Of a DNA stretch of 64,000 nucleotides, positions 7,235-44,340 are shown one piece after another; the stretch's first letter is position 1, and each line of letters starts with the position of its first letter. The translations under genes were made by a program, and so were the position numbers. The notes beneath the pieces are model-generated. The model was not told where the DNA came from and searched no databases. It saw only the letters and a program-made list of their open reading frames with translations. Source of the stretch: Isoetes taiwanensis (taxonomy: Eukaryota; Streptophyta; Lycopodiopsida; Isoetales; Isoetaceae); the NCBI GenBank assembly GCA_021234155.1, contig JAJEKV010000168.1:248001-312000 (forward strand), read 5' to 3'.

Positions 7235-7259
7235 AAGCACGATTTAATTAATTAGAGAA
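7235..7259 (+). repeat. Left terminal inverted repeat of the DNA transposon
   Basis: Begins AAGCACGATTTAATTAATTA. It matches the reverse complement of 29096-29120 with two mismatches over 25 bp and is preceded by the duplicated ATTG. Confidence 0.8.
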
Positions 7260-7566: not shown

Positions 7567-8147
7567 TGTTTGGGATCTGGGTTCGGGAACTCCTGGAAGA
7601 CAGCCCTCTGTGAGGACCCATGGATCTAACAGGAGAGTCCGGGGGACTATGTCACGCGGGATTTGCAAGAAGAGAACAAGAAGAAGAAAACAGAACAAAA
7701 AGAACAATGAGAGGAAAATGATAAGCTTCCTTGATATCAATGATGAACATACATGAGCTCTCGCAATCGAGAGAAAACTGAAACAAGACAAGACTCAAAA
7801 CTCATCTAGCCTTCATGTGCTAGCTCTAATCATATATATAGTACAATGGCCTTTGGCTCAATATAGACACTGGATCGATCTCTGGGTGCGACTCGGAAGG
7901 AGGCCCGATTTGCGCAGGAATGTTGGCGGTGCCTCTTGAAGTGCCTAGAATCACGCCCGACGACGGCGGTGGCCATCACTTGTCCGGAAGGCGCCTCTTT
8001 ATAGCGACCCGTGTTTTGACCGCGTGGTCTGCTGCTTGGTCTTCTCATTGGCCTTTGATGGCTGACCCGTGGATCGGCGGGATCCTTGAGCTTGACCTCG
8101 TCCGTCGTGTGCATGAATAGTCCCGAACCGGAGGCACAGGACTAACA
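7567..8147 (-). repeat. Gypsy 1 3' LTR
   Basis: 581 bp. On the element strand it runs from TGTTAGTCC to AAACA and is preceded by the polypurine tract GGTGGGGAAG. About 318 bp (7567-7884) differ from the other LTR at only about four positions, whereas the rest is strongly diverged. Confidence 0.9.
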
Positions 8148-8806
8148 CTTCCCCACCAAACGACACTCACCAAGAAAAGGAGGAATGGCTTCCGAGGGCG
8201 GGAAACCAAGCCGGGAAAGTGATCCTCACTGAATGAGGCCCACGCCATTATGGTAATGAGCAATGAGGTCCCGGGCGTGTTTGAAGAGCTTCGGGGTGTT
8301 GAGCCCCAGGCGTGATGGGCCTCAATGAGAAAATGAGAGCGCACCATGTCTTCCGTGGCGGCAAAGATGGGCGGCCGGGAACAAACCGCACTCCATGAGA
8401 AGGCGGGTTTGGAGACCGAAGGCACCGACAACCGGCATTCGGATTGCGTTGAAAGATTGACGCCGCCGATTTAAAGAGCTGACCAGATGCATTTGAGAGC
8501 CGCATTTAAAACCAACTTGTTTGGACCAAGGGTTCCGTGAGATGGCAAAGATTCTCAAAGAAGGTATCAAGACCATGCAAGGCATCGGCAGGCTTTTGCC
8601 AACCACGCCAAGCACCGATATAAATCCAATTTTCAGTAGTGTCCAAAGTGGCATTATCCTCCCGCTTGAGCGCCGACAAATCGGGATCCCACCGGAGATT
8701 CGTGGAGATCCGAGGCGAGTCGACCAAATAAGTGGCCATCCATGACCTTCGGCCCAAAAGGGAAGACGCCAAATCGAGAAAAAGGAACCGTATGGGAGGG
8801 GGGCTC

Positions 8807-11139: not shown

Positions 11140-11603
11140 GGCGAAAAGCGTCTGAACAGAAGGAACTGTGTGAAGAAGGCGGAGAGCGGAGAACTGAGGA
11201 CGAAGGACGAAGGCGCAGAGAGACGAAAAGGTTTAGGGCGCGCAATTGGAGGCGAAGGGGTATGATGAGGGCGAAACTGTAACCGTTGATGGTGCCAGGT
11301 GTCGAAAGATGCCAAGGATGGGATTGAGAGGCAAAAATTTGGCTAAGTCCCAGAACAACAAAGGGAGAAGCAATGAACGGTGAAGATGAGACGTGAGAGA
11401 ATGATCGGATGTGACAGGTGGTCAAAGGACACATATTAATGTTTGACGGGTATGAAAAGAAGCAATGGCATTTAATGCTGGCAACTCAAAGTGGGATATC
11501 ATTAAAACGAATGTGTCAGAGGGTACCCTTGCTAGATATGCGGCGGGAGAAAAGATTCTCAGTTTAGAAAGAGCCTTGCATTGCAAACACGTTGGCGAAT
11601 TTC

Positions 11604-11648
11604 TGATTGGTCCACGTCGACTAGTAGTTCCTCGGTTGGCTATATAAG
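11604..11648 (+). promoter_or_regulatory. Putative antisense promoter of gypsy 1
   Basis: An 18-bp block TGATTGGTCCACGTCGAC (11604-11621; inverted CCAAT plus ACGT core) lies 19 bp before TATATAAG (11641-11648), itself 29 bp before an ATG. The same block, spacing and GGCTATATAAGACGA box occur in gypsy 2 at 44341-44389 on the other strand. It points opposite to gag-pol. Confidence 0.6.
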
Positions 11649-11677
11649 ACGAACCGGGAGTGAAGCGAAGACATTCG

Positions 11678-11944
11678 ATGGCGCTTAGCATGGCAGCTGC
11701 TGGTTTGAACGAGAACTGCACAATGCCGACAAACTGTCAAGAGTGGATCACCTGTAAAATGAATTGTCTGGATCTCTGGCGCTGCCACAACCGTGGCCTG
11801 CGAATGGATGGCTGGTGTTCCGGGATGGCTGAACATCCCGACCCTCATACCAACGGGATGGAGGTGGTTCTGCACCTTCGCTGGGACCCTGAGCAGAACC
11901 TCTACCATCTCCTCCGCATCACCTCTGCTCTGAACCCGGAGTAG
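11678..11944 (+). CDS. Antisense six-cysteine ORF of the gypsy family (copy 1)
   Basis: An 88-codon open frame on the strand opposite to gag-pol, between integrase and the extra sense region. Residues about 5-58 hold six Cys in the order C-x5-C-x5-C-x3-C-x5-C-x10-C (MPTNCQEW, MDGWCSGMAEHPDP). No signal peptide or known domain is evident. Over 54 codons shared with the gypsy 2 copy I count 15 codons that differ without changing the residue and 5 that change it. That pattern is expected only if this frame has been selected as protein. Antisense ORFs are known in some plant LTR elements (for example maize Grande); I know no function for this one. It is part of a fossil element. Confidence 0.6.
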   Translation: MALSMAAAGLNENCTMPTNCQEWITCKMNCLDLWRCHNRGLRMDGWCSGMAEHPDPHTNGMEVVLHLRWDPEQNLYHLLRITSALNPE

Positions 11945-12083
11945 AGGGTTTTTCTTCGTAGGTTTTTAGTAGATAGGGCTCTGAGCCCGTTTTTGTATAT
12001 AGGGCAGTGCCCATAGCGGAAATAGTTGGGCTGTGCCCGCATTTTGTAAAAAATATCCACCTATAATATAATATGCCGGCGTT

Positions 12084-15000
12084 TTAGTCACTTTCTGTGG
12101 TGTTTGCTTCTTGAACAGCATCTGTTTGTTGATTTTCGCTTCCTGTGTGATGAAATGTTTTGAGGCGAAAGCCATTAACCAGTGTAGGTAATGGAGTGCC
12201 ATCTAACTCAGCCAGTTGGAAAACGCTGGGTCGAACCACTTGAACAATTTGATAAGGGCCAAGCCAACGAAACTTAAGTTTACCCGGAAAATTTTTGTAC
12301 CGAGAATCATAAAGAAGAACCAAATCTCCTTCTTTGAATGTTTTTGTCTTCAGACGTTTGTCATGTAAAGATTTTTGCAACTGTTGTCCATGAAGAACAC
12401 GAATATAAGCATCCCTTCTAAGTTCATCCAACTGTTCCAATTGATAGACCCTTTCTTTGAGTGCAGCAGGCAGATTATGGGCAGTAGCCAGTTGAAAACG
12501 GAGTGTTGGAAGGATGTATTCAAACGGCATGAGAGCTTCCTGACCATAAACCAATTTGAAAGGAGTGTGACCTGTAGCTATTTTGAAACAAGTATTGTAG
12601 GCCCAAAGAACAGTAGGAAGTTTTGTTTGCCAGTCTGTGCGTGAAGCGTCACAAATTTTCTTGAGAATGGTGACCAGAGTTTTGTTGGTGCTTTCCGCCA
12701 AATCATTACCTTGAGGATAGTAAGGTGTGCTCTTGTGATGATGTATCAGTAGATAATCCGTCCGCTCCTTGATGGTATGATTGATAAAATGGACACCACG
12801 ATCACTGACCAGCTCCGTGGGGCAGCCGAATCGCGTGATGATTTGTTGATAGAGGACCTTGGCTGTGCTTGCCGCAGTGTTGTCTGGAAGTGCGCAAGCT
12901 TCCGCCCATTTAGTAGCGTAGTCAGTGAGAACCGGAATGTAGCGGGCACGGGTGTGCCGCGCAGGAGGGTCGATGGGCCCCACAAAATCCATTCCCCATT
13001 TGCTGAAGGGAAGTGGCGTGGCAACCGGCGTCAAGGGAAGAGCGTCACGGGCCGTCGGCCGTCCCTCACGCTGGCAAGCATCACACGTGCGGGCATGGGC
13101 GTGAGCGTCTTTGAAGAGCGTGGGCCAAAAATACCCAGCTAGAAGGATTTTGCGTGCCGTGGTGTCACCATGAAAATGACCACCACCTAGCCCTTGATGA
13201 GCTTCTCGAACAATATCTGGAACTTCATGAGGTAGAACACAGCGTCGAAGGATGGTATCCTTACCCTTTTTGTAGAGATGTCCTGCAACCATGGTGTAGT
13301 CACGGACCTCGCGGAGAAATTGATGTCGACGGGGCCTGGCAGGAGAAAGTGTCTCGTCTTCAGGTGGAAGAGCACCTGTGAGGAGGTACTGCTGAAAATC
13401 ATGGAACCAATGTGGTGTTGCCGTGACTAAAAAGAGTTGAGCGTCAGGAAAGGCGTCTGAGACTCCAGTTGAGGGATCATCTGTGTGAATGTGTGAAAGA
13501 TAATCCGGGACCACATGATATTTGCCGGCCTTGTGAACAATTTCAAAAGGGGCAAATTCTTGGAGAAGAAGGACCCAACGAGCAATGCGGCCCGTGGGCG
13601 TGGATTTGTTGATCAAATAAAGGAGTGCTTGATGGTCAACAAAGAACTTGATTTGACTGCCCAAAAGGTAGTGACGGAAGCGTTGGACACAGAAAATGAG
13701 ACCCAAAGCTTCACGCTCTGTGGCAGAATAGTTGCGCTCAGCAGAATTGAGTTTTTGGCTGGCGTATCGATTTGGTTTGTCAGTGTGCGCATCATATTCT
13801 TGAGAAAGAACAGCTCCAATAGCAAACGCCGAGACATCGACATGAACATGAAAGGGTTTGTCCCATTGAGGAGGAACAAGAACCGGGGCCTGAGTAAGCA
13901 AAAGCTTCAACTGTTGAAAAGCAGCATCCGCCTGGGAATTTTAAGCCCAGGTGGATTCATCACCCGTGAGTTTATGAATGGGATCTGCAATGGCTGCTAG
14001 TCCAGGAATGAAGGTGGAGTAATAATTGACCTTACCCAGGAAAGAGCGTGTCTCCTTGATATTGGCTGGTGCTTGAGCCTTGAGCACACAACTGATTTTG
14101 GCAGGATCTGTGGTGATACCTGCTTTGCTGACAACGTGGCCTAACAGAACTCCTGAGGTGACGCAAAAGGTGCATTTCTTCGGATTGAGACTAATGCCAG
14201 ACTCATCACATTTCTGAAAGACGAGTTCTAATTTATCCAAATGGTCAGCCATGGAACTGTAGGCAGAGAAGTCATCTTGAAAAATTTGTAAGAAGGGATT
14301 TTCCTTCATGAAATCATGAAAAACTGAGAGCATGATTCGTTGAAACGTGGATGGAGAGTTTGATAAGCCAAAAGGAACCACCTTGTAGGCAAAAGTGCCC
14401 CACGGGATGGTGAAGGTAGTCTTGAGTTGGTCAGATTCTTTGATTGAGATCTGATTGTAGCCAGAAAAACCATCCATGAAGGAGTACATCTCATGTCCAG
14501 CGACCTCTTCCAGAACCTGGTCTGTGAAGGGAAGTGGAAAATGATCACGCTCCATGGCCTGATTGAGTTTTTGGTAGTCCACACAGACGCGGATCTTACC
14601 ATTGTGTTTGAGTGCAATGACAATGGGGCTCACCCATTCAGAATGTTTGATCTCATAGATCAAGCCTGCAGCAAGGAGCTTGTCAATTTCTGCCTTGACG
14701 CGATCACGGTAATTGGGGTTGAGCCGGTACTGTCGTTGCTAAACTGGACGTGCATCAGATTTGGTAGGAATTGTGAGTTCCCCCAAGCTTTTGTTGATTC
14801 CCCGAAGATCTCTGTAACTCCAGGCGAAAATGTGTTTGAACTTTTTGAAGAGTTTGACAGCCCTGTTACGATAGGGGGTCGGAAGATTTTCAACAAGTCG
14901 GACAGGCTGATTGTTGCCAACGTCCACGATCTCGACTTCTGGAGTCTGAATATGGGGTATCACTTTAGTGTCCTTAATGTGTGCAGGAGGTTGGAGCATA

Positions 15001-15707
15001 ACAGGATGCGTGGCACTCTGCGTGGTGAAAAAGAGAGGTTGTTGAGTTTCATCAAGCAGAGGTTGCTTCATGACAGCGTGGACATCTACAGGAGCTGCAG
15101 GAGATTCCTCATCTGAAAAGTGATCAACCCGTTGAATTCGATTGCAAGGAGCCAGGTAGGGGTCAAGCAAAGCCGCCACCGCCTGGTCCTGATCAAGAGT
15201 CATTTCACCCCAAGGATCAGCATATTCGGGGTAGGATGACAGAGGCAGACTCGCAGGTGGAGCCTGAACTTGATAGATATTCTGAGCTTCCTCAGAATCT
15301 GTGTCGGAGAGAGAGGGTTCAGCATGTTCAACAGAAATGATCTTGCCTGTTTCCAAGTCCATGGTGGCATTGAGGTGACCATCAGTGATGACTAACTGAT
15401 CCGTGGCCCAGTAATGGATACTCTTGGCCTGGGGGAGAAAAGGTCGGCCAACCAACATTTCATAATCGCTGGGATCTTCCCCAGCCTTCCAAACTCCAAA
15501 TTCCAAAGGGAATCGGAGGTCACCAATGTTGATGTGAAGAAGAGGCGTGACGCCTTGAGGTCTCGTGATATGGCCATTAGCCAATTTGATGTCATAGGGG
15601 GCATGATAAAGTTCTTTGATGCCCATTTGTTTGCGGAGTTTATCCGTGATGAGATTAACTGCGCTACCTCCGTCTATTTGAACATGGTTGACTTGCTGAT
15701 TACCCAC
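12084..15707 (-). pseudogene. Gypsy 1 pol region (protease, RT, RNase H, integrase; fossil)
   Basis: Reading on the minus strand: protease around VQIDGGSAVNLITD (near 15680); RT with the FQDDFSAYS box (near 14270); RNase H with DYLSHIHTDD at its end; integrase with an HHCC zinc motif (near 13190-13060) and the catalytic core around MDFVGPIDPP. No chromodomain follows. Typical Ty3/gypsy order. Broken as part of a fossil. Confidence 0.9.
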
Positions 15708-15789
15708 CGTGGCATGGACCGTGGGTGTAGAGGTAGCAACACGTAGAGGTCCTTGAGAGCAGGACAGAGTTTCAAAATGGTTGCCAAAC

Positions 15790-18557
15790 TTAAGGGGATT
15801 TTGATTTTTGCCAGCTCCTCTTGGAGTTCCAAAGGCACATGAGAAAAGGATCTGCTGGTTCCACGGGTGCTAGAGTGCGTGGTAATGAAGCAGCAACTTC
15901 TTTGAGTAAGTCAACCTCTGCAGCAATATTGGGATATGTCTGAGAGCGTGGAGGTTGAGATGTGGAAGGTGTATCTTGTCTTTGTTGAGCTCTGGTGGTG
16001 GCATGAACATTTGCCAACGTGCGGCCTTCTGCAGCTTGCATAAGGTTCAAAATGCTTTGGCGAACTTTAGGCATGACATGCGGCATGAGTTTCTCCAAGT
16101 CAGGTGCAAAGTGAACCTTTTTTTCTTCGTCATGAGGAATGGTGTCGACTGCAAAGGCAGGCTGCGTGCCATTAGGGATAATGGTCAAGGGGCGTGACAC
16201 CCTGGTCTGGCGTGAAACCAAACCAACCCAATTTGATGACTGGACTGGAGGATTAAGAGCCTGGAAAATTTCTTCCTGTGCTTGTTGATCCATCTGAGGT
16301 TGATTGGCAGGAGCAGGTTGATAACGTGATTGCTGAGGCGTGCGAGGTGGCTTCTTAAGAACAGGACGCGGGCCTTGTTTGCCATTAGCAATCCAGAGTT
16401 GGTAAGCCGTGAGGCGGACCGATGTGGTCTGATTGGTGCCAGGAAGCTGTACCTGAACTTGTGGAAGTTGAGGACACGCCGTGGTGGTATGACCCCATTC
16501 TTGACAGTGATAACACTGAGCTTTAGAAGGATCAAAAGGAGGACGTGGGTTGGGTCCCCGTTGTTGCTCCTGTTGCTGATAAAGTTGATTGGGTTGCGCC
16601 TGCAGTGGCGGCTGCTGATAGTGCGATTGTTGCTGAGGTGTGGTTTGCACTTGATAAACCAGTTTGTTGCAGAAAGGTGTGGGATGAGTGCGAGTGCACT
16701 CTTCCGTGGCATGATTGCACATGTTGCATCTCTTGCAATGAGGCGGGCCATTGGTGGAGTTGCACTCATTTGCCAAGTGGCTTCGTATTTGCAGATATGG
16801 CACCAGATCTGACTGCGCTGTGGATTGGCGTGTTGAGGCTGGACAGCCATCTATGGAACCATGACAGGTGGAATGAAAGGGAGCTCCTGAAGAGCCACGC
16901 CACGGGAGGAAACATTGACTGAGTGATTGACAAGGTCGATAGCCTGCTTCAAAGTCTTGGGACGCAGGTATTCAGTCATGAGTCGAATAGCTAGAGGAAG
17001 TCCTTGGAGAAACCAGACCGAGATCTGGCTCTGTGTTGGGTACTCCTTGAGTTTACTGAGCAGAATGTGAAGTCGATCTGCAAAATCCCGGGCAGACTCC
17101 GTGGGCTCTTGTTGAAGTTCATTGAGTTGCTTGAGATGAAGTTGATCATCATCCGTGGTCCCATAATGAGAAAGAAAAGCAGTTCGCATTTCGGACCAAT
17201 CTTGTTTCCAGTGGCTTTTGTTGGACATGAGCCATTGATGTGGAGAGCCACGCAGGGTGGTAGAAAAGATGTGGAATTTCAGTTGAGGTTGCGCATGACC
17301 ATTTAGGACAGCTAGAGCCTCAAATTCTTCCATGTGGGCCTGAGCACTTTGGTCTAAGGGTTTGCCTTTCGTGTTGCCAAAGGTGGGATAAGTCAGTTTC
17401 AGAGTCTGAAAGGCATTAGAGGTAATTTGAGATCTCATTTTGTCCCATTAAGGGATACTTAAAAAGCCACATCAGCTTTTTAAACTGTCCAATAAGAGAA
17501 GAGGTCCAGTGTATTTTATTCCAGTATTATGTGGCAGCAGTAATTAATGCAGTTCTAACTAACTTTTGCAGTGTCATTTTTCTACTATAACTTTTGATCA
17601 AAAACTCCGATTCGAACACTATTTGTGGCAATGGATTCGTCTCCTCAAGATCTTTCTAATGACAACCCATTGTTATATCTTTTGGGATGTAAATATATAA
17701 GAAAAGAGCAAAAAACCATATTTTTTAAGGTTAACACATATGGCTTGTATTGAAATACATCATAACCATATATCACTTGAAAGATCTTTTCATTCTGCAT
17801 CTAATGCAACAAACGCCGCAGCATTTTCATGAGTAGATCAAAAGTTATAGGGAAAAAACGATAGCAATGAAGTTGTTAATGCTGCATTAATTGCAGTTTG
17901 ATGTAGAGTACTCATTCTATTGGAGGATTCTTATGGGGACAAAAGGAGATCTCAAATTACCTCTAATGTAGATGTGAAAGTGCTTGGCTGGACAGGAACA
18001 GTATAGTGAGGATATTGAGGTGGAGTTGGAGGTGGCATGGTGCCTGAAGGACCCTGATGAAGGGGTGACTGCGGTTGAGGAACTGAAGGTGCCTGAGCAT
18101 TGGTTTTGAGGTCTGTAAGGTTGTAAACAGGAAGAGCAGTGGGAAATGTAGGGAAAGGAAATTCCTGGGTAGGCGCAAAAGAGACCTGTGGATATCCCTG
18201 CCCACCCGGGGGAGATGATGGTTGTGAAGGAAGAGGCGTATGGCCTGAAGAATGATGAATGTAGGCATGATCAGGGGTATGAAAGTAAGGTTGAGAAGGT
18301 TGAGCCTGATAGGGCTCCTGATAGTGATGAGGTGACTGAGGCTGTGAGCAGTGTTTGCACGCTTGGGGCGGGGAACTGGGACGAGACAGGACACGAGGGG
18401 TGGGTGGCGCCGACTGAACCCTAGACTGAAGGTGGCCTCCCTCAATGTCATAAGCATATCCATACATGTCGCGAACAGTTTCCCGACGATGATGACGCTC
18501 CAAGCGAGATGCCGTCTGAGAAAGGAGTTCTTCTGGCGTGAAATTTCGGACAGACAT
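15790..18557 (-). pseudogene. Gypsy 1 gag region (fossil)
   Basis: Starts MSVRNFTPEELLSQTASRLE near 18557. It is Pro/Gln-rich, has the capsid-type retrotransposon gag segment near 17380-16860 and a CCHC zinc knuckle (CYHCQEWGHTTTAC) near 16500. It is interrupted by the palindromic MITE at 17419-17963. The same proteins are recognisable in gypsy 2. Confidence 0.85.
17419..17963. mobile_element. 545-bp palindromic MITE in gypsy 1 gag
   Basis: Terminal inverted repeats of 28 bp (GAGGTAATTTGAGATCTC then M TTTTGTCCC; one mismatch) flanked by TA on both sides, which fits a Tc1/mariner-type target duplication. The rest is a long imperfect inverted repeat: an AATTAATGCAG block and CTATAACTTTTGATC both recur inverted in the right half. 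No coding capacity. Its core resembles the foldback at 51279-51561. Confidence 0.7.
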
Positions 18558-18604
18558 GACGACAGAAGAAATGAGGATCGAATCAGACCCGGCAGCGGCG
18601 ACAG

Positions 18605-19197
18605 TGTTTGGGGTCTGGGTTCGGGAACTCCTGGAAGACAGCCCTCTGTGAGGACCCGTGGATCTAACAGGAGAGTCCGGGGGACTATGTCACGCGGGAT
18701 TTGCAAGAAGAGAACAAGAAGAAGAAAACAGAACAAAAAGAACAATGAGAGGAAAATGATAAGCTTCCTTGATATCAATGATGAACATACATGAGCTCTC
18801 GCAATCGAGAGAAAACTGAAACGAGACAAGACTCAAAACTCATCTAGCCTTCATGTGCTAGCTCTAATCATATATATAGTACAATGGCCTTTGGCCCAAT
18901 ATAGACACTCTGACTGATCTCGGTGCCGACTCCTAGAAGGAGGCCTGATTTGCAGGAATGTTGGCGGTGCCTCTTGAAGTGCCTAGAATGACGCTGACGC
19001 TGACGCGGGCGGTGGCGGGCCATCACTTGTCTGAGTGGCGCCTCTTGATAGCAGACCCAGGTTTTGACTGCGTGGTCTGCTGCTTGGTCTTCTGTTGGGC
19101 CTTTGATGGCTGACCCGTGGCTGACTGTGGATCCTTGAGCTTGACCTGGTCCGTCGTGTGCATGAATAGTCCTGAACCAGGAGGCACAGGACTAACA
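18605..19197 (-). repeat. Gypsy 1 5' LTR
   Basis: 593 bp, the TG...CA partner of 7567-8147. It is followed on the element strand by a tRNA-Asp-like primer site. A TATATATA box lies near 18873-18881. Its U3 half is closer to the LTR of gypsy 2 than to its own partner. Confidence 0.9.
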
Positions 19198-19345
19198 ATA
19201 ATGAGGATCGCGGTGGCAAACATTGTGAGTTGTCGTGTCAAGGAAAGTTTAGACAAAAAACAAAACTGAAATAGTAAACTCAAAGCATTGTAATTTTTAT
19301 TCCTCAAACATTTCAATCTACATTACTTTGCCATATGGGCAGAAA

Positions 19346-19960
19346 TTAGTCCATCTGGGTTTCCGATACTGTCTCAGATACAACACCTATCTCAGCAGCT
19401 ATCCTAACTACATGTTCCTGCCCCCTTTGTAGAACATCTTCTGTGTCCATCTCAGTATAGCCTGTTTTATCTGGGATTTCTACAGACATGGCCTGCGCAA
19501 GGAGTTGGACATGTGGATCGGGTCCTTCAGTGTCAGTATCCATGGGGGTCCCTTCGACATATGCGCCACTCTGCTCAGCACATGCGATATCGGGTGCATG
19601 GAAGAGTTTGGTTTTTTTCATTGCTGGAACCTGATGCTCTTGTGTGCCTGATAGCTCACCCTCTTGATCCGCAGGGTCCACGACCATGCCTACGTATTCG
19701 AAACTCGACCCGCCTGTCAAGAAAGGCATGTAGGCATCAAATTTTTCATTTAAAGCCCCCAATTTTTGAAACACGGGCTCTAGCGCAGTAATACCTTTCT
19801 CAGTAGCCTCCAGAAGTCTTTTCGTTTCCTGCATTCTTTCCTCGTAGCTTTTCTCATCCATTTGATCCAAGATTGAATCAATGTTAGATATATCTGTTCC
19901 TTGGGTAATTTTTAAATTGATCGTATTAGGATCATTCAGGCTCTGCCTTATCCTCTTCAT
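19346..19960 (-). CDS. 204-residue acidic ORF overlapping the MTase-like frame
   Basis: Open frame starting MKRIRQSLNDPNTINLKI that overlaps the last 29 nt of the methyltransferase-like frame in another phase. It contains a helical Glu/Leu segment (residues about 25-75, possibly coiled coil) and an acidic tail rich in Asp/Glu/Thr. No domain is recognised. Because it lies directly downstream with no intergenic gap, it could be the C-terminal part of the same protein, reached by a frameshift or by a mutation in this copy, or a separate small protein. Confidence 0.5.
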   Translation of the reverse strand: MKRIRQSLNDPNTINLKITQGTDISNIDSILDQMDEKSYEERMQETKRLLEATEKGITALEPVFQKLGALNEKFDAYMPFLTGGSSFEYVGMVVDPADQEGELSGTQEHQVPAMKKTKLFHAPDIACAEQSGAYVEGTPMDTDTEGPDPHVQLLAQAMSVEIPDKTGYTEMDTEDVLQRGQEHVVRIAAEIGVVSETVSETQMD

Positions 19961-21317
19961 CTGTCTCCCCAGTGCCCTGTCTGACCAGATTTTCGAGCTT
20001 ATCCAGGAAAGCCCTCAGAAATCGGCACACTTTACCCTGGCTTTCGAAAGCAATACTCTTCTTTCCCTGGATTAAGGCGACACGAGAAGCAGTACCTACT
20101 GAGAAGAAATCAAGAACACAACCATCCTTGGGCACAAGCTTGTCAACCAGGTAGTAAGCATATGATGTCTTCAACTGGCACTTCAGCACGTGGTCACCTT
20201 TCATTCCGACAAACTTGTACCTGGGTTTACCCGTGAAATATGTCTGCCATTTCTTCTTCATTTTCTCATCAGTATCTTCGTCACCACTGACAGGCATTGG
20301 TGGCGAGGGCGTCTTCTGTGGTGCAGTGCTCACCTGTGTCAAACGAAGCTCCAGCTCCGGCATTATCGCCTTTACCCCGGAGTCGCTTCTGTTAATGCAC
20401 ATATGGGTGATGTAATACTGACTTTTCTTCACCCTTTTCTTGTTCACCCATCCCGGCTCGTCATATGTACCTACAGAAATATGGGACCCGCCTTGAATCT
20501 GTTTTTGGCTGTACAAGCAATCTGGCAAGTTCGCAGACCGCATCAGAATCACAAGGTGATAAATGTTAGCAGTTGTCATGCTGGATATTCTTGTGAAGAG
20601 TTCCATATATTTCTTGCACGTCCATAATGCAGAGAATCCTCTAATGTCTATGAACACCATAGTTGCATTCTCAGATACTGGAGTGGAGGTAGGAATCCCT
20701 TCCTTTGTTACAGCATGTACAACATTTTTCTTCTCCTTGATCTTGATAGCCTCTTCAGGTTTCAAAATCGATCTAATGGGTTCTAGAAATGCAACGGGCA
20801 AATTACCCACAACATGTTCCTTATTGTAATTTGCTTTCACGTACTCTGTATCCGAATCAGATATATCCAGAATCCACTGTTCCGTGAAAGCAGGAAATTC
20901 AGAAAGCAACTCTTCCCAAAAAGTGTATTCTTTTTGAAGCAGCGTGGAAGCGTATGACAAAATCTCTTTCCGCATGAAGCTCAGGCTTCTAATATCAATG
21001 GCGCGCTGCTGGCAATTAAACCTGCCATGATATCCGCTTTGCACCTTAATGTATGTCTTTCCTTCCAAAATCTCATCGCGAAGCTGAGAAACCTCTGCAT
21101 TAGACATGCCTCGAAGGTATCTTAACCAGGTTTTGTTGAAGAAGTCCTTCGAGGGCTTACCAGGAAAATCTCCATGCTCATCACAGATCTTCTTGTTGAC
21201 CCATCTGTTGGCCACTTCCATTAACTTTTTGAACACCCACTCCTCCATAAAAATAAATTGCTTCTCGTCCTTTAGCTCCTTCACCTTCAACGTTGTGGTA
21301 GCTATCTCGTGGAAGTC
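19932..21317 (-). CDS. Exon 4: beta-class DNA amino-methyltransferase-like domain
   Basis: A 461-codon open exon. Numbering from the Leu-Lys-Val-Lys at 21290, a SAM-binding motif I is clear at residues 393-400 (VLDFFSVGTAS, then a VALIQGKKSIAFES strand). The usual form in N4/N6 methylases is VLDxFxGSGTT. The segment VFIDIRGF at 212-219 stands where the catalytic [DNS]PP[YFW] motif IV should be. The order IV-then-I is that of the beta class. The catalytic Pro-Pro-Tyr is absent, so I expect DNA or SAM binding rather than catalysis, or loss in this copy. The first 200 residues are helical and unknown; residues 320-345 are a Pro/Glu-rich linker. Confidence 0.6.
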   Translation of the reverse strand, partial: DFHEIATTTLKVKELKDEKQFIFMEEWVFKKLMEVANRWVNKKICDEHGDFPGKPSKDFFNKTWLRYLRGMSNAEVSQLRDEILEGKTYIKVQSGYHGRFNCQQRAIDIRSLSFMRKEILSYASTLLQKEYTFWEELLSEFPAFTEQWILDISDSDTEYVKANYNKEHVVGNLPVAFLEPIRSILKPEEAIKIKEKKNVVHAVTKEGIPTSTPVSENATMVFIDIRGFSALWTCKKYMELFTRISSMTTANIYHLVILMRSANLPDCLYSQKQIQGGSHISVGTYDEPGWVNKKRVKKSQYYITHMCINRSDSGVKAIMPELELRLTQVSTAPQKTPSPPMPVSGDEDTDEKMKKKWQTYFTGKPRYKFVGMKGDHVLKCQLKTSYAYYLVDKLVPKDGCVLDFFSVGTASRVALIQGKKSIAFESQGKVCRFLRAFLDKLENLVRQGTGETDEEDKAEPE

Positions 21318-21340
21318 CTACAAAACAAATGGTCAGGGAA

Positions 21341-21354
21341 ATCGCGGCCGCGAT
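21341..21354. promoter_or_regulatory. Palindromic site ATCGC-GGCC-GCGAT in a 64-bp intron
   Basis: Perfect half-sites with a 4-bp centre, followed after 6 bp by GAGC as at other sites. It occupies more than a fifth of the 64-bp intron between exons 3 and 4. Confidence 0.7.
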
Positions 21355-21381
21355 GTCATTGAGCTGGGCTAATAAAAATAC

Positions 21382-21730
21382 CTTCCATGCGGAGGTGGTG
21401 GCAGTGCCAATGGGACCTTGAGGAGGACATCCATACGCTTTATGTTGATGCCGCAGCTGTTGGAGCTTCTCTAACAATGGCTCTCTATATACAGTGTTAG
21501 CGATTACTTCATTTCACTGAATGCTCAACTCAATGTATTCTCTATCTGTCAAGTTTCCATTAAGCACTCTTGTTCTTCTCCTCGCGTAGGCTTTAGCAAA
21601 CTCCAGCCGTTGTTCGAGCTCTCCAACAAGACAGCACAGCAACTGAGCTGCACATATACTGTGGTTACCAGATATTATCCAAAATTTTTTGCCCTTCAGG
21701 TCAGCCTCTGTACTCCACGTGATCTTTTTC
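21382..21730 (-). CDS. Exon 3: ParB-like core
   Basis: This exon carries the segment KKFWIISGNHSICAAQ, which matches the nucleotide-binding loop of ParB/sulfiredoxin-like domains (Dxx[HR]RxxAAK, GERRxxA). An RVLNGNLTDREYIELSIQ-NEV stretch corresponds to 'v.dLsdeEAlelaiiEN'. The start of the domain (PTEVLTPADVVPFDP) is at the end of exon 2. One in-frame TGA (21514-21516) interrupts it. Flanking introns of 65 and 64 bp have clean GTGATT..CAG and GTATTT..TAG ends. Confidence 0.6.
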
Positions 21731-21795
21731 CTGATATAACGTGTACTTGTAAGTTAAGAAGCCACAAACCAAAAATCATGAACAATAACAATCAC

Positions 21796-22921
21796 CTGGT
21801 AATGGGGTCGAATGGGACAACATCGGCTGGCGTGAGCACCTCCGTAGGATACGTTTTGAAACTCTTCACGAGAGTCTGCACGTGGTCATTAGAACGCATT
21901 CGATGCGTGAGGTTAGCAGGAGCTGGTTCGAAATCGAATATGGAGACCTTCATAAACCAGTTCACACCAAGCGGGTAGAACCGTTTGAATTGTTCAAGCT
22001 TCTGTGCAGTTTATTCTGCCAATTTGCGTTCTTCTTCAGGATTGAATTTGAGCTCGGTCGGCAGTTCAGAAGCAAGAGGAAATGCTAGCCTCTTGGACGA
22101 TGCAACACCTGAGACGGAAGGGGGGGTGTTGGAAGAAGAAGGTTCTGCGCTATCAGAAGTATTGAGTTTGCCGAGTTTGATTGTGAACTTTGGGATAGTA
22201 GTATCTTTAGGCATAGTAGGGGGAGCACAAATAGCCAGAGGTTGAGCAGGATCTATAACAGCAGATGGTTGGGCAGTGGAAACAGGCTCCACGGAGAGGG
22301 CTCTGGGTTCGGTAGAGGCCTCTGCTAGAGATACGGGCTTCACATGTTTTTTCTTCGCCTGAGCTCTTAACCAGTTCGTGTCCATTACAGAAGGCATCTT
22401 CTCATCTCTTTTAGCTTTCAGTGCAATGCTAGGCGGTTTCTTATCTGCTTGCAAACCTTTTCTGCATGTCGAGAAGCCAGATAATATATCCCTATTGCCA
22501 GTTATTCCGGACAGAGACAGAGATTCATAGGACTGCAGCTGCCAGCCGTATCCTTTCGCACTGGTCGGAACATTCTTTCCAGTGGCCGGCTTGTTTGACT
22601 TGCTAGCTGCCATGAGCGAGGGATCATAGTTTGTCCATTTAAGGACATATTCAATGAACTGCAAATTCTGTGTGTCCTCTACGCTGCATATAATAGCGTC
22701 TTGCACATTGTTTTTTGTTCCTTCCCACATAGCGATTGCAATTCCTATCTGCTGTATGTCATCGGCTTTCTTGCCAGTCCTGAGGAACAAGCAAAGGTCT
22801 TTACGGCGGTCGCCTTTCGTCTGTGGAATTGCTTGTGCAATTTCAATGCACCACTTTCTTTCATTTGAAGGTGTGATGATCTTAGTGGGTTCAACGTCTG
22901 GACCGCGAAACAAATCCAGAG
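21796..22921 (-). CDS. Exon 2: N-terminal region of the ParB-MTase-like protein
   Basis: Starts ALDLFRGPDVEPTKI after the acceptor TTCCTTGCAG. The first about 110 residues look globular; a Lys-rich, Ser/Pro-rich linker follows (residues about 110-300). After an in-frame TAA at 22011-22013 the same frame continues for about 70 codons into the ParB-like domain. I do not recognise the N-terminal fold. Confidence 0.55.
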
Positions 22922-22982
22922 CTGCAAGGAAGAGGTGTGTCAGTATTCCCTAATGCACACATCCTTCAGTAATGTCAACAAC

Positions 22983-23188
22983 ATCGCGGTCGCGATCCTC
23001 ATAAGAGCTTACGACGATCCGTCCGACCACTCACCAGGATCGCGAACGCGATGCTATAGAGCAGTCAACAGGATCGCGGACGCGATCCGTCCGACCACTC
23101 ACCAGGATCGCGGCCGCGATGCTACCGAGCAGTCAGCAGGATCGCCGACGCGATCCGTCCGAGCACTCACCAGGATCGCGGCCGCGAT
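22983..23188. repeat. Iteron-like array of ATCGC-N4-GCGAT palindromes in intron 1
   Basis: Six sites: 22983, 23039, 23073, 23107, 23141 and 23175 (start of ATCGC). The last five are spaced exactly 34 bp. The extended unit is itself near-palindromic: GCTCANNAGGATCGC, four free bases, GCGATCYTNNTGAGC. Units alternate between two flank types (GCTAYMGAGCAGTCA and CCGTCCGASCACTCA), which suggests duplication of a 68-bp pair. The array lies inside intron 1 of the ParB-like gene. Most units carry GATC at one or both ends of the core. Confidence 0.8.
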
Positions 23189-23266
23189 CCTGTTGAGTTC
23201 CAAACCTTATCATGACTACATTACGAAAAGGTGAACAATATAATTAAACATCCACTATGGAAGGAA

Positions 23267-23280
23267 ATCGCGCCCGCGAT
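23267..23280. promoter_or_regulatory. Palindromic site ATCGC-GCCC-GCGAT near the intron 1 donor
   Basis: Perfect half-sites located 29 bp inside intron 1, followed by CTTCTTGAGCTGAG, the symmetrical GAGC extension. Confidence 0.7.
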
Positions 23281-23385
23281 CTTCTTGAGCTGAGGGGGTT
23301 AGAACTAACCTTCTCGGAGGTGCGCTTTTGGTGCCATGGATCGCTGGCGCCGGAAAATTTCGGAAAACGGGTACGCTTGCGGTTG

Positions 23386-23916
23386 AAGGCGCTCGGAGGA
23401 GGCAAAAGCGCTGGGAATCGCGGAAGGCGCTCGTCGAAGGCGCTGGGCGGAATGAAAGTCGAAGGAATCGCGAGAATAAATAATGGTCGCGGCAGCCGGA
23501 TTAATTTATTCCGGCACGTGCAGGACCTGACGCGCAATAAATGCCAGCCATTAATACGGCCGGGATTCATAATTACCCACCATAAATGCAGCCGTCCTTA
23601 TTAATGGACACCCAACAACTTTATTGTAAATGTGGCACCTTCCGGACAAGAGGTACTTTTGGTCGTGCACCTCTAAATTTAAAATGTGTACGTAAAGTGG
23701 GAACCAAAATAAAGACCCCTCTCGAGCGCGGTTGAAGGACTGAAAAAGACAACTGATTTTAAATTTTGAACCTGAATTTCGCGCTCGATCAAGAAGGTGG
23801 CATTTCCAGTTTGTAATCGAGCAGGGCGCTCGTTCTTCTCGTCTGGGCGCTCGTTGGGTTTTTGGAGGCGCTCGATCTGTTCTTCAGGGCTCTAGGTCTC
23901 ATCTTGAAGGCGCTCG
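23386..23916. promoter_or_regulatory. GGCGCTCG motif cluster upstream of the ParB-like gene
   Basis: At least eight copies of (A)GGCGCTCG or its close form CGCGCTCGA: near 23386, 23424, 23437 (GGCGCTGG), 23720 (inverted), 23781, 23825, 23846, 23867 and 23909. The cluster lies immediately upstream of the start codon at 23337 and does not overlap the ATCGC palindromes. It could be a promoter element or transposase binding site. Confidence 0.5.
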
Positions 23917-24372
23917 CCTACTTTAAGCTACCGGTGTGCAAAATCCTAATGCCTTACTGTTTATCCAGCTAGAAGTTATCGAATTCAGGAGTGATTTTGG
24001 ATTTGTTGTTTATGTATAGGTTATAATAGTGTGTTGACAACCATAATGTAATTCACTGTATTGGCACCATCTCTTTCTTGGTATATGCTGTTCAGGGATC
24101 TGTATAATCTGGTTAGCGAGGCCCAATTGAATTGTTTATTTCCCGGACTAATTGATAGTGAGGGAATATGACGGTAACATAATGGTTCTGCTAATGGTTC
24201 TGCTCCCAGGTGTTCATTTCACGACAAATCTCCATTGTAATTAACTGAAAGGCAATTTTCGTTGTGGAAATAACAGCTGCAATTAATATTCACATAAACA
24301 TTTGATTTGCGACACTTACTCAAATATCTATTTTTTGATTAGTTGGACCTGTTCGGATCTCTGCCTGAAAGA

Positions 24373-24761
24373 ATCGCGACTGCGTTCATCCGGAGCTTAG
24401 CACTTATAACGCGACGTGAAATTACATCGAATTAATCGCGATTGCGATCTTGTGGAGGTAAGTCCAGTAGATAAGTGCTTTTTAAATGGTCAGAGAAAAT
24501 AGTTTGAGTTAAATAAGGTTAGTTAAATTAGAGAAAGATTCTAGGTAGATTTGAAGGATTCAAGATGTCCACCATAGAGGTCCGAAGGATCGCCGTCGCG
24601 ATCTCCCCGTCCCATCTGTGTCTTGTGCTTGTGTCATTTATACCCATGTGCTCAAGAGGATCGCCTTCGCGATCTTCCTGAGGTATTATGTCGTCCCTTC
24701 TGGCCTTTGAGTATTGTGCATTTTTTTCTACTTATGAGGTCGAGCGGATCGCCATCGCGAT
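24373..24761. promoter_or_regulatory. Five dispersed ATCGC-N4-GCGAT sites before the plus-strand genes
   Basis: Sites start at 24373 (one mismatch, GCGTT), 24435, 24589, 24660 and 24748, with centres GACT, GATT, CGTC, CTTC and CATC. The 24660 site has the full extended symmetry, GCTCAAGAGGATCGC then CTTC then GCGATCTTCCTGAGG. They mirror the array on the other side of the divergent region. Confidence 0.75.
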
Positions 24762-24790
24762 GTTGACAAGCAGTGTTGACTTTCTTTAGG

Positions 24791-25267
24791 ATGGAAGCTC
24801 TACAGTCATTCTACATGTTGGGGAAGAAGGTGGCTGAGGGCAGAGTGCATAACTTCAAAAATCACCACAACGTCCTCGTGCCAGACGAATTGATAGTAGT
24901 TTCTCTTGTCGTTGTCTTTGATGGGCAGATACCACTGCCGTTTCCAGAACCGGAATTGAACCACCTAGGGGAAGCTGTCGGTAGCTTCGTTCTTTGGTCC
25001 AAAAGCGACGTTCAGAATGAAATCACTCCAGCACCCGATGTTAGCACACCACCTAGTCAGATCAAACGGATAAATTGGCAAGTTCCAGTAAATGCCTGTG
25101 AAGGAAACAGTGAACCAATTGAATTGCAGGGGATTTGCAGGGATAAACTAGTGGAAAAGACATGTGAGTTCTTGCCGAAAGTCTTTGCAAAACGCCTTTT
25201 ATGGTACAAAATATCATCGTTTTTCGCAGATCCAAACGATGCCGATATCCGACATGAAGTTGGGTGA
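24791..25267 (+). CDS. DUF8039-like exon of the DNA transposon
   Basis: Follows an acceptor-like TTTCTTTAG and starts MEALQSFYMLGKKVAEGRVH. The pattern GKKVAEGRV...VPDELIVVSLVVVFDGQIPLPFPEPE...GEAVGSFVLW resembles a domain (DUF8039-like) found in proteins of plant En/Spm-type transposons (V-A-x-G-x-V ... L-P ... dA-G-xxV-xW). That identification is from memory and moderate. It ends at a TGA at 25265-25267; coding-like sequence in other frames continues to about 25400, so this copy may be frameshifted. It is probably part of the transposase transcript downstream. Confidence 0.5.
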   Translation: MEALQSFYMLGKKVAEGRVHNFKNHHNVLVPDELIVVSLVVVFDGQIPLPFPEPELNHLGEAVGSFVLWSKSDVQNEITPAPDVSTPPSQIKRINWQVPVNACEGNSEPIELQGICRDKLVEKTCEFLPKVFAKRLLWYKISSFFADPNDADIRHEVG

Positions 25268-25694
25268 AGCATGGATAGGGTTTACTGTTATGAATTTGTT
25301 GCCAATGCCCTAGAAGATTTCTATGCTCGCTTGGGCTTGTGCCCGCAGATGCATGACTTGGTGAGATGGCCAATAGCATTGGTTCTCGTGATGATTCCGT
25401 TTCTAGCCTAGTTACGGCCGTGAAGGAGAGACCGAGGGTCGAGAAGGAAGCTTATGCCATCAGGTAGGAGCTGGAGTAACAAAAAAAACAAGCATTACCA
25501 CATGGTGAACGTGAAGGCGAGAGGACGCCGACCCCAAAAAAAAAAGGTGAAAGGAAAACCACACCGAAGCTATCTTGCGCTTCAGTTCTCGATGTCTTTG
25601 CTTGAGGAGATGTTGTGCTAATTTCACAGCTTAAGGAGGTATCCGCCATGAGGACCTTCTCTTCGAACATGAAAAGCTCGAACGCATTTGACTT

Positions 25695-27919
25695 TTGCAT
25701 TACAACATGCTAGATCTTTGTTCAGAGAATGGAAGTGTGAAAAAGCTAATGCTGAACAACAGGCAAGTCTGTGTGAAGGCATGGCATACTGCATACGGTA
25801 TACCAGTTTCTACATTTTACAAATGGAGGAAGCTTTTTATGGACGGGCACAGGATTGCGGAGCACGGAAACTCCGGGTCCATGAAGCCAAGGTCTCATAC
25901 ACTGGCCGGAGGTGCTGTGCTATCTATGTACATAGATGAAAATGCTGAAACTATGCCACACCGCTCAAAGGTTACGAGTGGGGGAACTAGAGAAAATGTG
26001 AAGAGATTACCTTCCATTTTGACTAAAAAGGACATACATCAAGAGGTAGATATAACCGTCCACGAGATGACAGAAAAACATGTTTCTCAGTCGTCCTTCT
26101 TGTCAATGTGGAAGGAGAACCACTCTGAGGTAGCAATCACCAAAAGGATAGCATTTTCTAAGTGTAATACCTGTATTGTGATAAAGGAGAAACTTGCCAA
26201 GACTAGAGATCCAAGAGAAAGAAGAGAGCTTGCCGTGGAAAGGAAATCTCACATGACAGCCCAACTTTCCTGCAGGAGTCTCTACTGGTCATGGAGATCT
26301 TTGTCTCATCGATCTCCTGAACATGCCTTAACCATTATACATGATAAAATGGATCAGAATAAGACAATGGTTCCTCGTCTGGAGAAGCTAGCAAAATCTG
26401 TATGGAGGGGTGAACGGTTGAAGGTGAGTCTTACTGGTGCTCTCATGCATGGGCATGGTGTAGGTGCCTTGGGCCACTTCTCGCTGGACCTCTGGCCTGA
26501 TGATTCGAATTTTCATGTGGGATCTTTAAATCATACCTTGAAAACACTAGAGAATCAATCTGAGGACAACTGGGGTCATTTGAGAAATACCGATCATCCA
26601 GGAAGCTGCTGGGGTGGAGCAATTTTGAACACGGAAGCCCTTAGGACAAAAATGGTGAATGGCACTAGAAATGATTTTACGCCTCCTATCAAGGGCCCTC
26701 TAATACCGAAGAAGTTGCCTAGGAGGCTTTACTTGCAGCTAGACAATTGCTCAGGACAAAACAAGAACAGGTATCTTTTCTCTTACTTGTCATACTTGGT
26801 CTGGTTAGGTGTCTTCGATCAAAAGCAACCGATTCATGATGGTTGGACACACCCACGATGACATAGATGCCCTCTTTGGAAACTACTCTACTCTATTGAA
26901 AAGATCAGATGCATTGACTATTCCGGAGCTTATGCAACTCTTCAGGCAGTGTAGTTCAAAGTCTCCTACGCCCTACCTTGTGTCTGAGGTTCCCAACTGG
27001 AAAGAATTCGTGAAAGGTTTTATCCCTGATAAGAAGGACCGTTTATGTGGTCATTTGGAACCTCTACTCTTCAAGTTCTGCATGAATGATGGATGGCCAC
27101 TAATGTTCTACAAGATGAGGCCAGGGCATAGGGAGTGGCTACCTGAAAAGGGAATTAAAATGTGGAAGGAGGATGCCCAAGGCTTACCTATGATTCCTAG
27201 AGGGTCACCTAAGGTCGTGCAGCCATATCAGAGCTTGACAGATATAGGTGCCTTGAGAGCTTCAATTGTCAAGTACATGATGCAATTGGGCAGCTATTTC
27301 TAGAGCCGGGCGATAACTCATGGTCTAACACATATATGAATGAAGTTATTGACTACTTGGTCCACCTTGTTGCGAGTGCTTGGGGACGTTCAGCCCTAGA
27401 GAGAACTGCTATTCGTGATTTCGCCCAAAGACGAGACAAACTGCATTAGAAGAACCCGACAACTTATTGGTGGATGAAAGCATTGGTGCATCTCATTATG
27501 TCGGGCCTTTCTCTGGTAGACCCAAGAACCCTGTTGAAATATTCGACCCCTACCAAGATGTGAAGAAAGGAATGCTCTTGCTGATCAGGCCACATGATAA
27601 CTGCCCGACGTGGATGGCCTTTGCGGAAGAGGACCCAGTAGAGGACCCTAATCTCCCTCACTATGAAGAGGTGTTTGTTTCTTGGTTTGAGCCTGTTGCC
27701 CGAAAGGGTACCTCATATGCAATGCAGTATAGGGATTGTTGGAGCAAGAATTGGAGACCGAATCCTAATGACCCGCCACGCTACCAACATTTGAAAACGA
27801 TAGACTATGGTTGGGCCGTAGGGACCAGGCCGTTGTCAGCGGTGATCCCCAGTGGTGTGGGGGCTCAGTTGCAAGAATTAGTGGCTAAAGAAGCTAACGA
27901 CGAGGATGATAACTCTTGA
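25695..27919 (+). pseudogene. DDE-type transposase (LDNC..NKN / GHTHDDID family), decayed
   Basis: Coding spread over three frames: 25695-26861, 26809-27303 and 27467-27919, with the linker 27304-27440 readable in a further frame, so there are about three frameshifts. In the first 388 residues: an N-terminal VCVKAWHTAYGI helix block, a CxxC motif (SKCNTC, 155-160) after a W-K-E-N-H-S-E-V segment, a candidate first Asp in HDKMDQ (216-221) and the LQLDNCSGQNKN block (347-358). The second frame supplies MMVGHTHDDIDALFG. The three blocks fit an RNase-H-like DDD catalytic core of the type annotated as DUF7869 in plants and other eukaryotes. The C-terminal part (VGPFSGRPKNPVEIFDPY...WYR-like W-F-E-P) resembles a small chromatin-binding-type beta domain. 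It lies divergent to the ParB-like gene. Confidence 0.7.
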
Positions 27920-28057
27920 GGTATGCAATGTTCTTTTACATAATTACTATATCATACATGACATGCAACTTACAATAGACTAGTTATTATTCATTAGGCT
28001 TTGTGTTTTTCATCTCAACACAAGAGCTCTTACATTATACAATGCCAAACAGGTGAT

Positions 28058-28243
28058 TCATTCAGGATCTGTAGTAGTGATCCCTGATATCTCATAGCTC
28101 ATGCGCTCAGGAAGCCAGATCAGATGGGTCATAACACGAATTGACGCAGGGCAATGAATCTCAGCGCCCAAAGTTTTTCTTCGCAGGTAGGGATCAAGAA
28201 GAAGATGTCTGTCTAGGCAACCAACAAGATCTGAGTGGCTCAT
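28058..28243 (-). CDS. Small gene A near the transposon right end
   Basis: 61 residues from MSHSDLVGC; an in-frame ATG 51 bp upstream at 28294 would give 78. It shares about 39% identity with small gene B over its whole length: MS-x-x-DL, C, LDPxL, K..G, C, RV, H..WLP, YE..GIT. No known domain; acidic C-terminus. A TATA box at 28331-28337 is upstream on the same strand. Tandem arrangement with B shows a duplication of gene plus promoter, with the protein better kept than the surrounding DNA. Confidence 0.5.
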   Translation of the reverse strand: MSHSDLVGCLDRHLLLDPYLRRKTLGAEIHCPASIRVMTHLIWLPERMSYEISGITTTDPE

Positions 28244-28330
28244 TGAGCACTTGATCGCCTCAATGTGATGAACTGAAGAAGGTGAGAAATCCATGGGGGA
28301 TGAATGAAATTTAGCCCCGAAGTGAGAAGC

Positions 28331-28337
28331 TTTTATA
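28331..28337 (-). promoter_or_regulatory. TATA box of small gene A
   Basis: TATAAAA on the minus strand within CACTATAAAAGC. The context TTCACTATAAAA and the AATTATT downstream flank are shared with small gene B. Confidence 0.45.
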
Positions 28338-28654
28338 GTGAAGTTGAATGATTGAGGTGAATTATTGGGGTAGACTTCACCACCATTATTGAACGTGTAT
28401 CAGACTGTTGTATACATACAAGAATAATACTTATTTCATACTAATATGCGTATGTTTGAAAACATGTTTGCTTGACGAATTTAGCTATGATTGAATTCAA
28501 TGACAGCTTGCAGAAAAAGTGGAGGTGGGATAGCACATCGTTACAATATACTCAGTTAAGGTAATTCATATTACATCCTTAATCAGAATGCTATTACATC
28601 CTTACTTAGTTATTAGGTACCCATGTCATTATTGCATTATTAGCAGGTGCAGAT

Positions 28655-28846
28655 TCACTCGTCATCAACATCAAAGCTCGTGATGCCATTCAGCTCATAG
28701 ATCTCCTGATCAGGAAGCCAGTAAATGTGGACTTTAACACGAGTGAGCTTCCTGCAAGCACTAGCAGGTCCATCAGCTTTAGATAAGAGCCATGGATCAA
28801 GCTTAACGCCATTTCTAGCGCATTCGCCCAGATCGTTGTAGCTCAA
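28655..28846 (-). CDS. Small gene B near the transposon right end
   Basis: 63 residues, MSYNDLGECARNGVKLDPWL, a paralogue of gene A with conserved Cys9 and Cys31-32 region, the LDPWL core, WLPDQEIYELNGIT and an acidic tail (DVDDE). A TATA box lies at 28877-28883, about 31 bp before the ATG. No function known. Compact size and hydrophobic core suggest a small folded protein. Retention of two copies within the element suggests a role for it. Confidence 0.5.
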   Translation of the reverse strand: MSYNDLGECARNGVKLDPWLLSKADGPASACRKLTRVKVHIYWLPDQEIYELNGITSFDVDDE

Positions 28847-28876
28847 TGAATGGCCTCTACCCCCTCGTCAAGCCGT

Positions 28877-28883
28877 TTTTATA
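28877..28883 (-). promoter_or_regulatory. TATA box of small gene B
   Basis: TATAAAA on the minus strand in TTCACTATAAAAAC, matching the promoter context of small gene A about 545 bp away. Confidence 0.45.
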
Positions 28884-29095
28884 GTGAAGTAAAATTATTG
28901 ATGTGAATTATTGGTGTACAATGTAGGGCCATTATTGAGCTTCTATGAGTGTCATGTACACGTACAAGTATAACACAAAATTTGTATGTATATGTGTATG
29001 TTAATCACCTCATATTTCTTGTGCTCGAGAAGTAGGTGAAAGTATTCGTGCTAGAGCAAATTAGGTGTGCTTAAAATTCTCAAAATGGGCTTATT

Positions 29096-29120
29096 TTCTC
29101 CAATTAATGAAATCGTGCTT
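29096..29120 (-). repeat. Right terminal inverted repeat of the DNA transposon
   Basis: The reverse complement begins AAGCACGATTTCATTAATTG. It is followed outward by the duplicated ATTG and then copia RT coding. Confidence 0.8.
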
Positions 29121-44305: not shown

Positions 44306-44340
44306 GGTCGCCAAAGGGTGTCTCAGCTTCACCCACTGCT

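Follow-up and report, generated by a model that had tools for sequence, protein, structure and literature searches.

What reads the long palindromes that recur within a DNA transposon of the lycopod Isoetes taiwanensis? A stretch of 64,000 nucleotides from this plant (contig JAJEKV010000168.1, positions 248,001 to 312,000; hereafter the window) contains a cluster of sites of the form ATCGCN4GCGAT in a transposon that has a transposase gene and, divergent from it, a separate accessory gene, here termed gene B. The original prediction for this locus took gene B to encode a ParB-like protein and the palindromes to be an iteron-like array of parS-type loading sites. Our analysis indicates that the palindromes are very probably protein target sites belonging to the element; we give roughly even chances to the narrower reading that they are targets of an element-encoded dimeric binder, probably the gene B product, with an anti-silencing or autoregulatory role like that of VANC in the VANDAL transposons of Arabidopsis.

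All 13 sites first listed in the window are correctly placed (12 match ATCGCN4GCGAT exactly and one, at 24373, has a single mismatch), and the 64 kb hold no further exact copy. Base composition predicts 0.04 exact sites, so the 12 are not a product of chance; at two or fewer mismatches there are 30 matches, compared with 13.6 in shuffled sequences (largest shuffle, 23). The constant 4-bp centre is real, since among spacers from N0 to N12 only N4 is present in the window. Five sites (23039 to 23175) are exactly 34 bp apart, and a half-site centred at 23011 lies one further 34-bp step from them; the term "iteron-like" is apt for this spacing and for nothing beyond it. The outer symmetry claimed for the sites also holds: a symmetric 34-bp matrix, built from the same 15 window sites that it scores, gives them 23 to 47, with 2.9 at the next best place in the window and at most 4.3 in the reversed window. 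These 15 sites, all inside the transposon, comprise the earlier 13 and two degenerate ones (7465 and 19207), which were missed because an 11.6-kb long terminal repeat (LTR) retrotransposon splits the host element. Intron 1 of gene B holds seven sites and intron 3 one, the transposase gene has five in its 5′ non-coding part (three of these, at 24589, 24660, and 24748, inside its proposed 5′ intron) and two lie on the 3′ side of gene B, which bears out the placement in introns and the divergent region and adds two sites 3′ of the minus-strand gene.

A scan of the 1.66-Gb genome, as the original prediction had proposed, found 5982 exact sites, compared with 518 for the reversed pattern; the version with a 5-bp spacer (N5) occurs 611 times and its reversed control 240 times. 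The first 50 sites listed, in contig order, were each inspected in fetched DNA, and a site was scored as outside the element where neither tblastn nor blastn detects the element within 1 kb. Forty-four of the 50 lie inside copies or remnants of the transposon, 43 in loci with coding matches to the element and one (L072) about 230 bp from an element end; L067:8323, which falls below the matrix threshold, is counted among them because of its position between gene B and the end of the element. The motif thus belongs to the transposon: it is not equally frequent elsewhere, and other copies carry it (108 matrix matches in 14 copies). The pattern was also found in 51 stretches of viral contigs, each at a single place, which we regard as chance matches.

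The census bears on the suggestion that the palindromes are sites of a host transcription factor, taken over by the element to serve its divergent promoter as enhancer or insulator. Sites do lie on either side of the promoter region of the two genes, and strong conservation would suit a stable host factor; however, such a factor would be expected to have many sites in host DNA, whereas those sampled are concentrated in the element, and the 3′ pair is distant from the promoter. We consider this explanation unlikely.

Comparisons between copies were all made within this one genome, with 14 other copies, of which 11 were chosen by the motif and three by gene B (L066 and L070 to L085 were not included). 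The 108 sites found in them at a matrix threshold of 12 provide 216 halves, picked by the window-derived matrix, and yield the half-site CGCGATCYTNNYGASC, in which G3, C4, G5, T7, and the outer A15 are most fixed (the outer A is present in 195 of the 216). The two blocks within a half-site are about 10 bp apart, as are the two cores of a palindrome, and a dimer could therefore read one face of the helix. There are one or two CpGs per half-site; at columns 3 to 5, 29 of the 34 departures are transitions expected from decay of methylated CpG, a pattern suggesting that sites in dead copies have been CG-methylated. At two sites (L058:3880 and L060:3554) the palindrome is perfect over 38 bp and has the variant core AACGCGGCCGCGTT; where the two differ, both arms carry the change, as though one had been corrected from the other.

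Matched changes of this kind would also be compatible with selection on an RNA or DNA hairpin or cruciform (in splicing, as a small-RNA source, or in recombination), as would the facts that the cores are inverted repeats, many of them intronic, and that at columns 8 to 13 of 123 related sites the arms agree more often (0.489) than when shuffled within loci (0.404; z 5.6). In the window alone, however, agreement at these columns is 36 of 90, compared with 35.5 expected, and when one site is taken from each of 21 clusters (coarse ones, since one contains 83 of the 123 sites) the excess falls to z 1.6 (P about 0.09), or z 2.3 (P about 0.02) for columns 8 to 10 alone. In the core and the outer GA the letters are fixed and do not covary. 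A hairpin as the selected feature appears unlikely.

Conservation of the sites exceeds that of their surroundings. None of the 108 matrix matches falls within coding matches, which cover 59% of the spans of the 14 copies. The palindrome of intron 3 is found at the same spot in exact form in four of 13 copies (the window, L058, L063, and L087); it is altered yet recognisable in six, reduced to remnants in two, and deleted in one (L061). Its core is 88% identical among six subfamily representatives, picked because the site is readable in them, compared with 50% for the remaining intron, and 71% compared with 54% over all 13 copies; seven of the 13 rows (decayed, shifted or near-duplicate) were dropped to leave the six, and five were dropped in a parallel comparison. 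Intron 1 of the window aligns throughout with that of a near relative, L086, whereas the single best match per pair with L058, L059, L060, L062, L087, and L088 is just 28 to 52 bp long and in each case lies over a palindrome. In the window and L086 most steps within arrays measure 34 bp; in those same six copies most are 61 to 65 bp, and others such as L061 have longer ones still. A pair of palindromes 107 bp apart is present 3′ of gene B in six of the 14 copies (the fetched DNA of L086 to L088 stops short of that region); the corresponding window sites, 7465 and 19207, are by arithmetic about 106 bp apart without the LTR element. The motif is little changed while exon 4 of gene B has diverged to about 60% identity.

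The sites are thus element-borne, non-coding, symmetric, spacer-specific and conserved across diverged copies. Because diverged relatives keep the same palindrome, it is probably the docking site of a self-recognition protein, and the element offers two candidates. Each of the 14 copies has gene B within the DNA fetched for it, and for at least 21 of 96 gene B matches a divergent transposase match occurs within about 9 kb.

The transposase is a DUF7869 protein (PF25273, E 1.4e-17 and 5e-18) with 47 homologs, relatives in the moss Ceratodon being among the named matches; it has RNase-H-type matches and is predicted to be DDE-like. A search of the accessible literature did not find a paper on DUF7869. 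If this protein bound the palindromes, they could be subterminal repeats on which a transpososome is built. Its weak HTH_23 match (E 0.016), the site about 230 bp from the left end and the 107-bp pair are consistent with such a role, but no window site lies between the transposase start and the right end, and 12 of the 15 are located in the two 5′ non-coding regions, distant from the ends. Binding by the transposase is accordingly rather unlikely.

Gene B is open at full length, with the same introns, in two relatives (L087 and L088), and open frames of 657 amino acids in other copies span its C-terminal region. Its conserved first 300 residues have no match in Pfam, and gene B as a whole has none above a cut-off; no homologs were found among 5.8 billion proteins, for which candidates were selected by a word-based method only. 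In exons 2 and 3 a conserved ParB-like string, HRMRSNDHVQTLVKSFK, followed by SGNHS..AAQ, is visible by eye, and no tool confirms it. ParB proteins bind palindromic, clustered parS sites and act with a partner ATPase, ParA. The likeness of the present locus to such a system consists in palindromic sites clustered beside a gene; the differences are that the host is a eukaryotic transposon and that neither a ParB domain nor ParA is detected. Searches of Pfam, NCBIfam, PHROGs and PDB by sequence profile, with window gene B, the two full-length relatives and small alignments as queries (exon 3 of L058 was excluded from one, A3, because it contains a stop), returned no ParB or Srx match. A search of the whole genome for PF02195 likewise returned nothing, though this family is detected in 10 of 14 control genomes, and ParA has no match in the nine element pieces scanned with Pfam. 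The proposed ParB-like domain therefore finds no support, and we regard parS-like loading sites as a highly improbable explanation of the palindromes. A phage match, Peetri (E 0.7), was rejected: it has no Pfam family, and the aligned stretch ends before the SGNHS motif. A second phage match has E 6.

It is equally improbable that gene B encodes an active adenine or cytosine-N4 methyltransferase and that the palindromes are the marks of its self-methylation. The C-terminus of gene B resembles the S-adenosylmethionine-binding motif of amino-methyltransferases, a resemblance too weak to rely on: PF01555 matches exon 4 of the window at E 0.029, one alignment profile (A2) has two matches in the PDB, both of them RsrI, an N6A methyltransferase, aligned at motif I with E 0.99, and five weak phage matches include two records of one phage's RsrI-type gene (E 3). 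However, neither full-length relative has a PF01555 match, and unrelated families score equally well or better in relatives (Cas9_PI at E 0.0022 in L087; Fe_dep_repress at 0.02); in the window DUF5496 (E 0.043) is about equal to PF01555. The full-length profile A1 matches no PDB methyltransferase, and PDB searches with exon 4 alone or with the full-length profile return only unrelated chains. The catalytic motif IV of beta-class amino-methyltransferases is (D/N/S)PP(Y/F/W). At its position the three A2 rows that cover it read D[MI]R[SG][FM], and DPPY is absent there from all other copies inspected, which vary at this position. The likeness to RsrI and other beta-class DNA N6A and N4C methyltransferases is thus confined to a motif I-like segment toward the C-terminus, at a score level with chance families, and motif IV is absent from gene B. 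If the protein does have a methyltransferase fold, it is probably catalytically dead, because the catalytic motif is replaced in the rows inspected.

The reading that we prefer is that one sequence-specific dimeric protein, encoded by the transposon and most likely by gene B, binds the palindromes. A monomer would contact two blocks, CGCGATCYT close to the centre and YGASC roughly one turn of the helix beyond it, and the bound protein would mark the element as "self." Its main docking places would be the 5′ non-coding arrays of the two genes, from which it may keep the two divergent first introns and the promoter open against host silencing, or autoregulate them; anti-silencing or autoregulation by gene B is proposed by analogy with VANC21. 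Protein binding, gene B as the binder and an anti-silencing effect are what we infer from the features described above. A more elaborate version, which we advance tentatively and consider possible rather than probable, is that a Sola-like plant transposon has evolved its own self-recognition and anti-silencing independently of VANDAL and VANC. Gene B, possibly built partly on a catalytically dead amino-methyltransferase scaffold, would read a conserved 34-bp two-block palindrome across the non-coding DNA of the element, and the host would blind gene B by methylating the CpGs of these sites, a modification that would thereby act as the switch.

Several observations weigh against recognition of the palindromes by gene B, or soften the evidence for it. 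Profile searches find no recognised DNA-binding domain in gene B. Six of the 50 sampled sites lie outside the element (L066 twice, L070, L071, L073, and L074; L073 is so counted though it has a matrix match of 13 elsewhere in its stretch), where the reversed control predicts a chance share of about 4 of 50. The co-occurrence of sites and gene B is partly built in by the choice of copies, and the nominal probability of finding none of 108 matches in coding sequence is tiny but is calculated as if related sites were independent. Some pairs of copies share up to 181 bp of intron 1 at 66 to 73%; the 181 bp at 66% shared by L058 and L062 are more than a palindrome. In the accessible text of two papers the VANC motifs, as given there, are short and lack palindromic form, and the repeats that VANC targets diverge fast (PMC5735166, PMC10398659). 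By comparison, each half of the long palindrome described here has two contact blocks, and the site is conserved over diverged copies.

Table 1. Coordinates of the transposon, its genes and its palindromes in the window
Feature	Position	Strand	Basis or remark
Whole DNA transposon	7235..29120		Terminal inverted repeats and target-site duplication ATTG; same ends in other copies
Palindrome, degenerate (1 mismatch), outer of 3′ pair	7465..7478		Pattern and matrix scan
Nested LTR retrotransposon, 11,631 bp	7567..19197	-	LTRs 7567-8147 and 18605-19197, target-site duplication ATAAT; splits transposon
Palindrome, degenerate (2 mismatches), inner of 3′ pair	19207..19220		Pattern and matrix scan
Gene B, C-terminal part, different frame	19346..20014	-	Frameshift in window copy, open through in other copies
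Gene B exon 4, as open in window	19932..21317	-	Holds VLDFFSVGTASRVAL (methyltransferase motif I-like); IDIRGF at motif IV position
Gene B intron 3, 64 bp	21318..21381	-	Contains palindrome 21341
Palindrome in gene B intron 3	21341..21354		Exact match
Gene B exon 3	21382..21745	-	In-frame TGA in window copy
Gene B exon 2	21796..22921	-	In-frame TAA in window copy
Gene B intron 1	22922..23309	-	Seven palindromes
Palindrome in gene B intron 1	22983..22996		Exact match
Array of five palindromes, 34-bp steps (23039, 23073, 23107, 23141, 23175)	23039..23188		Intron 1
Palindrome in gene B intron 1	23267..23280		Exact match
Gene B exon 1, 28 nt with start codon	23310..23337	-	Contains start codon
Divergent promoter region	23338..24372		Without full palindromes; six GGCGCTCG boxes
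Palindrome (1 mismatch), 5′ of transposase gene	24373..24386		Pattern scan
Palindrome shortly before GTAAGT donor at 24458	24435..24448		Exact match
Proposed 5′ intron of transposase gene	24458..24789	+	Splice consensus only
Transposase gene, DUF7869	24791..27919	+	Reading frame broken in several places in window copy

The ends of the transposon are an addition to the original prediction, which reported none (Table 1). The terminal inverted repeat AAGCACGATTTNATTAATTNGAGA is found at 7235-7264 and 29091-29120 (24 of 30 positions identical), a 4-bp target-site duplication (TSD), ATTG, flanks the element, and it is 10,250 bp long without the nested LTR retrotransposon and the TSD of the latter. 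A second copy, on contig C44, has the same ends and the TSD ATAT, read from the flanks of L084 and L065; a 4-bp TSD, as in the Sola superfamily, is therefore present in both copies examined at both ends, and the transposon fits Sola in its TSD and, apparently, in its catalytic residues. The 1 kb between exon 1 of gene B and 24373 was found by matrix scan to have no full palindrome. All six GGCGCTCG boxes of the window are located here, on the plus strand of the divergent promoter (23388-23909), four of them at steps of 21, 21, and 42 bp; GGCGCT recurs in the 21/21/42 pattern in L086 and L061, and the 21/42 part of it in L058. A 21-bp step corresponds to two helical turns. Near the right end of the transposon there is a 157-nt direct repeat (28300-28456 and 28846-29002; 70% identical) without palindromes.

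The LTRs of the nested retrotransposon are 91.5% identical, and a related LTR retrotransposon lies at 38079-48383 on the opposite strand (about 77 to 79% identity). The DNA transposon itself seems to have inserted into copia-like pol sequence, of which the halves can be read by eye at 6690-7234 and 29121-29640. Further features seen by eye are minus-strand pieces that resemble a gene for a plastid ATP/ADP translocase (33300-34700) and a short inverted repeat around AAACCCCCTTTGGTTTGGGTGCATATTCACACG (31880-31950 and 32170-32240).

Among known transposons, Sola elements are characterized in the accessible text of one paper by a DDD-type transposase, a 4-bp TSD and presence in a moss (PMC10741241). 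Compared by description only, the Isoetes element resembles them in TSD and size range, has transposase relatives in a moss, may have a transposase of the same type, and differs in its accessory gene and palindrome arrays, which that text does not mention for Sola. A non-exhaustive search of the literature found, in the text accessible, no plant transposon described with palindrome arrays or with a ParB-like protein. A second point of comparison is TnpA of En/Spm, a DNA-binding regulator that is encoded by its transposon and has repeated short sites there; gene B, if it is such a regulator, would resemble TnpA in this. The 12-bp repeats bound by TnpA are subterminal and needed for transposition, whereas the sites described here are mostly in 5′ non-coding regions and are absent from the right end.

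VANDALs are Mutator-like and differ from the present element in transposon type; the two are likened here by layout and not by protein sequence. Each has an accessory gene beside the transposase and short element-specific motifs in non-coding DNA, often in tandem arrays that differ between families. VANC21 motifs, in the portions of text available, are tandemly repeated and occupy introns, intergenic DNA and terminal non-coding DNA, and the presence of VANC21 brings loss of DNA methylation (PMC5735166, PMC10398659). The Isoetes element likewise has an element-specific motif repeated in its non-coding parts, with tandem arrays. If gene B does bind these sites, a further transposon lineage would have a self-recognition code, the site would be bound by a DNA-binding module that has no recognised relatives, and it would become testable whether element-encoded anti-silencing is a general survival route of large plant DNA transposons. 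Such a code would stand out by its length, its conservation and its thousands of copies within a single genome, in contrast to the quickly diverging target repeats of VANC. By analogy, then, the system may work like VANC and Spm TnpA, without being assigned as a member of either.

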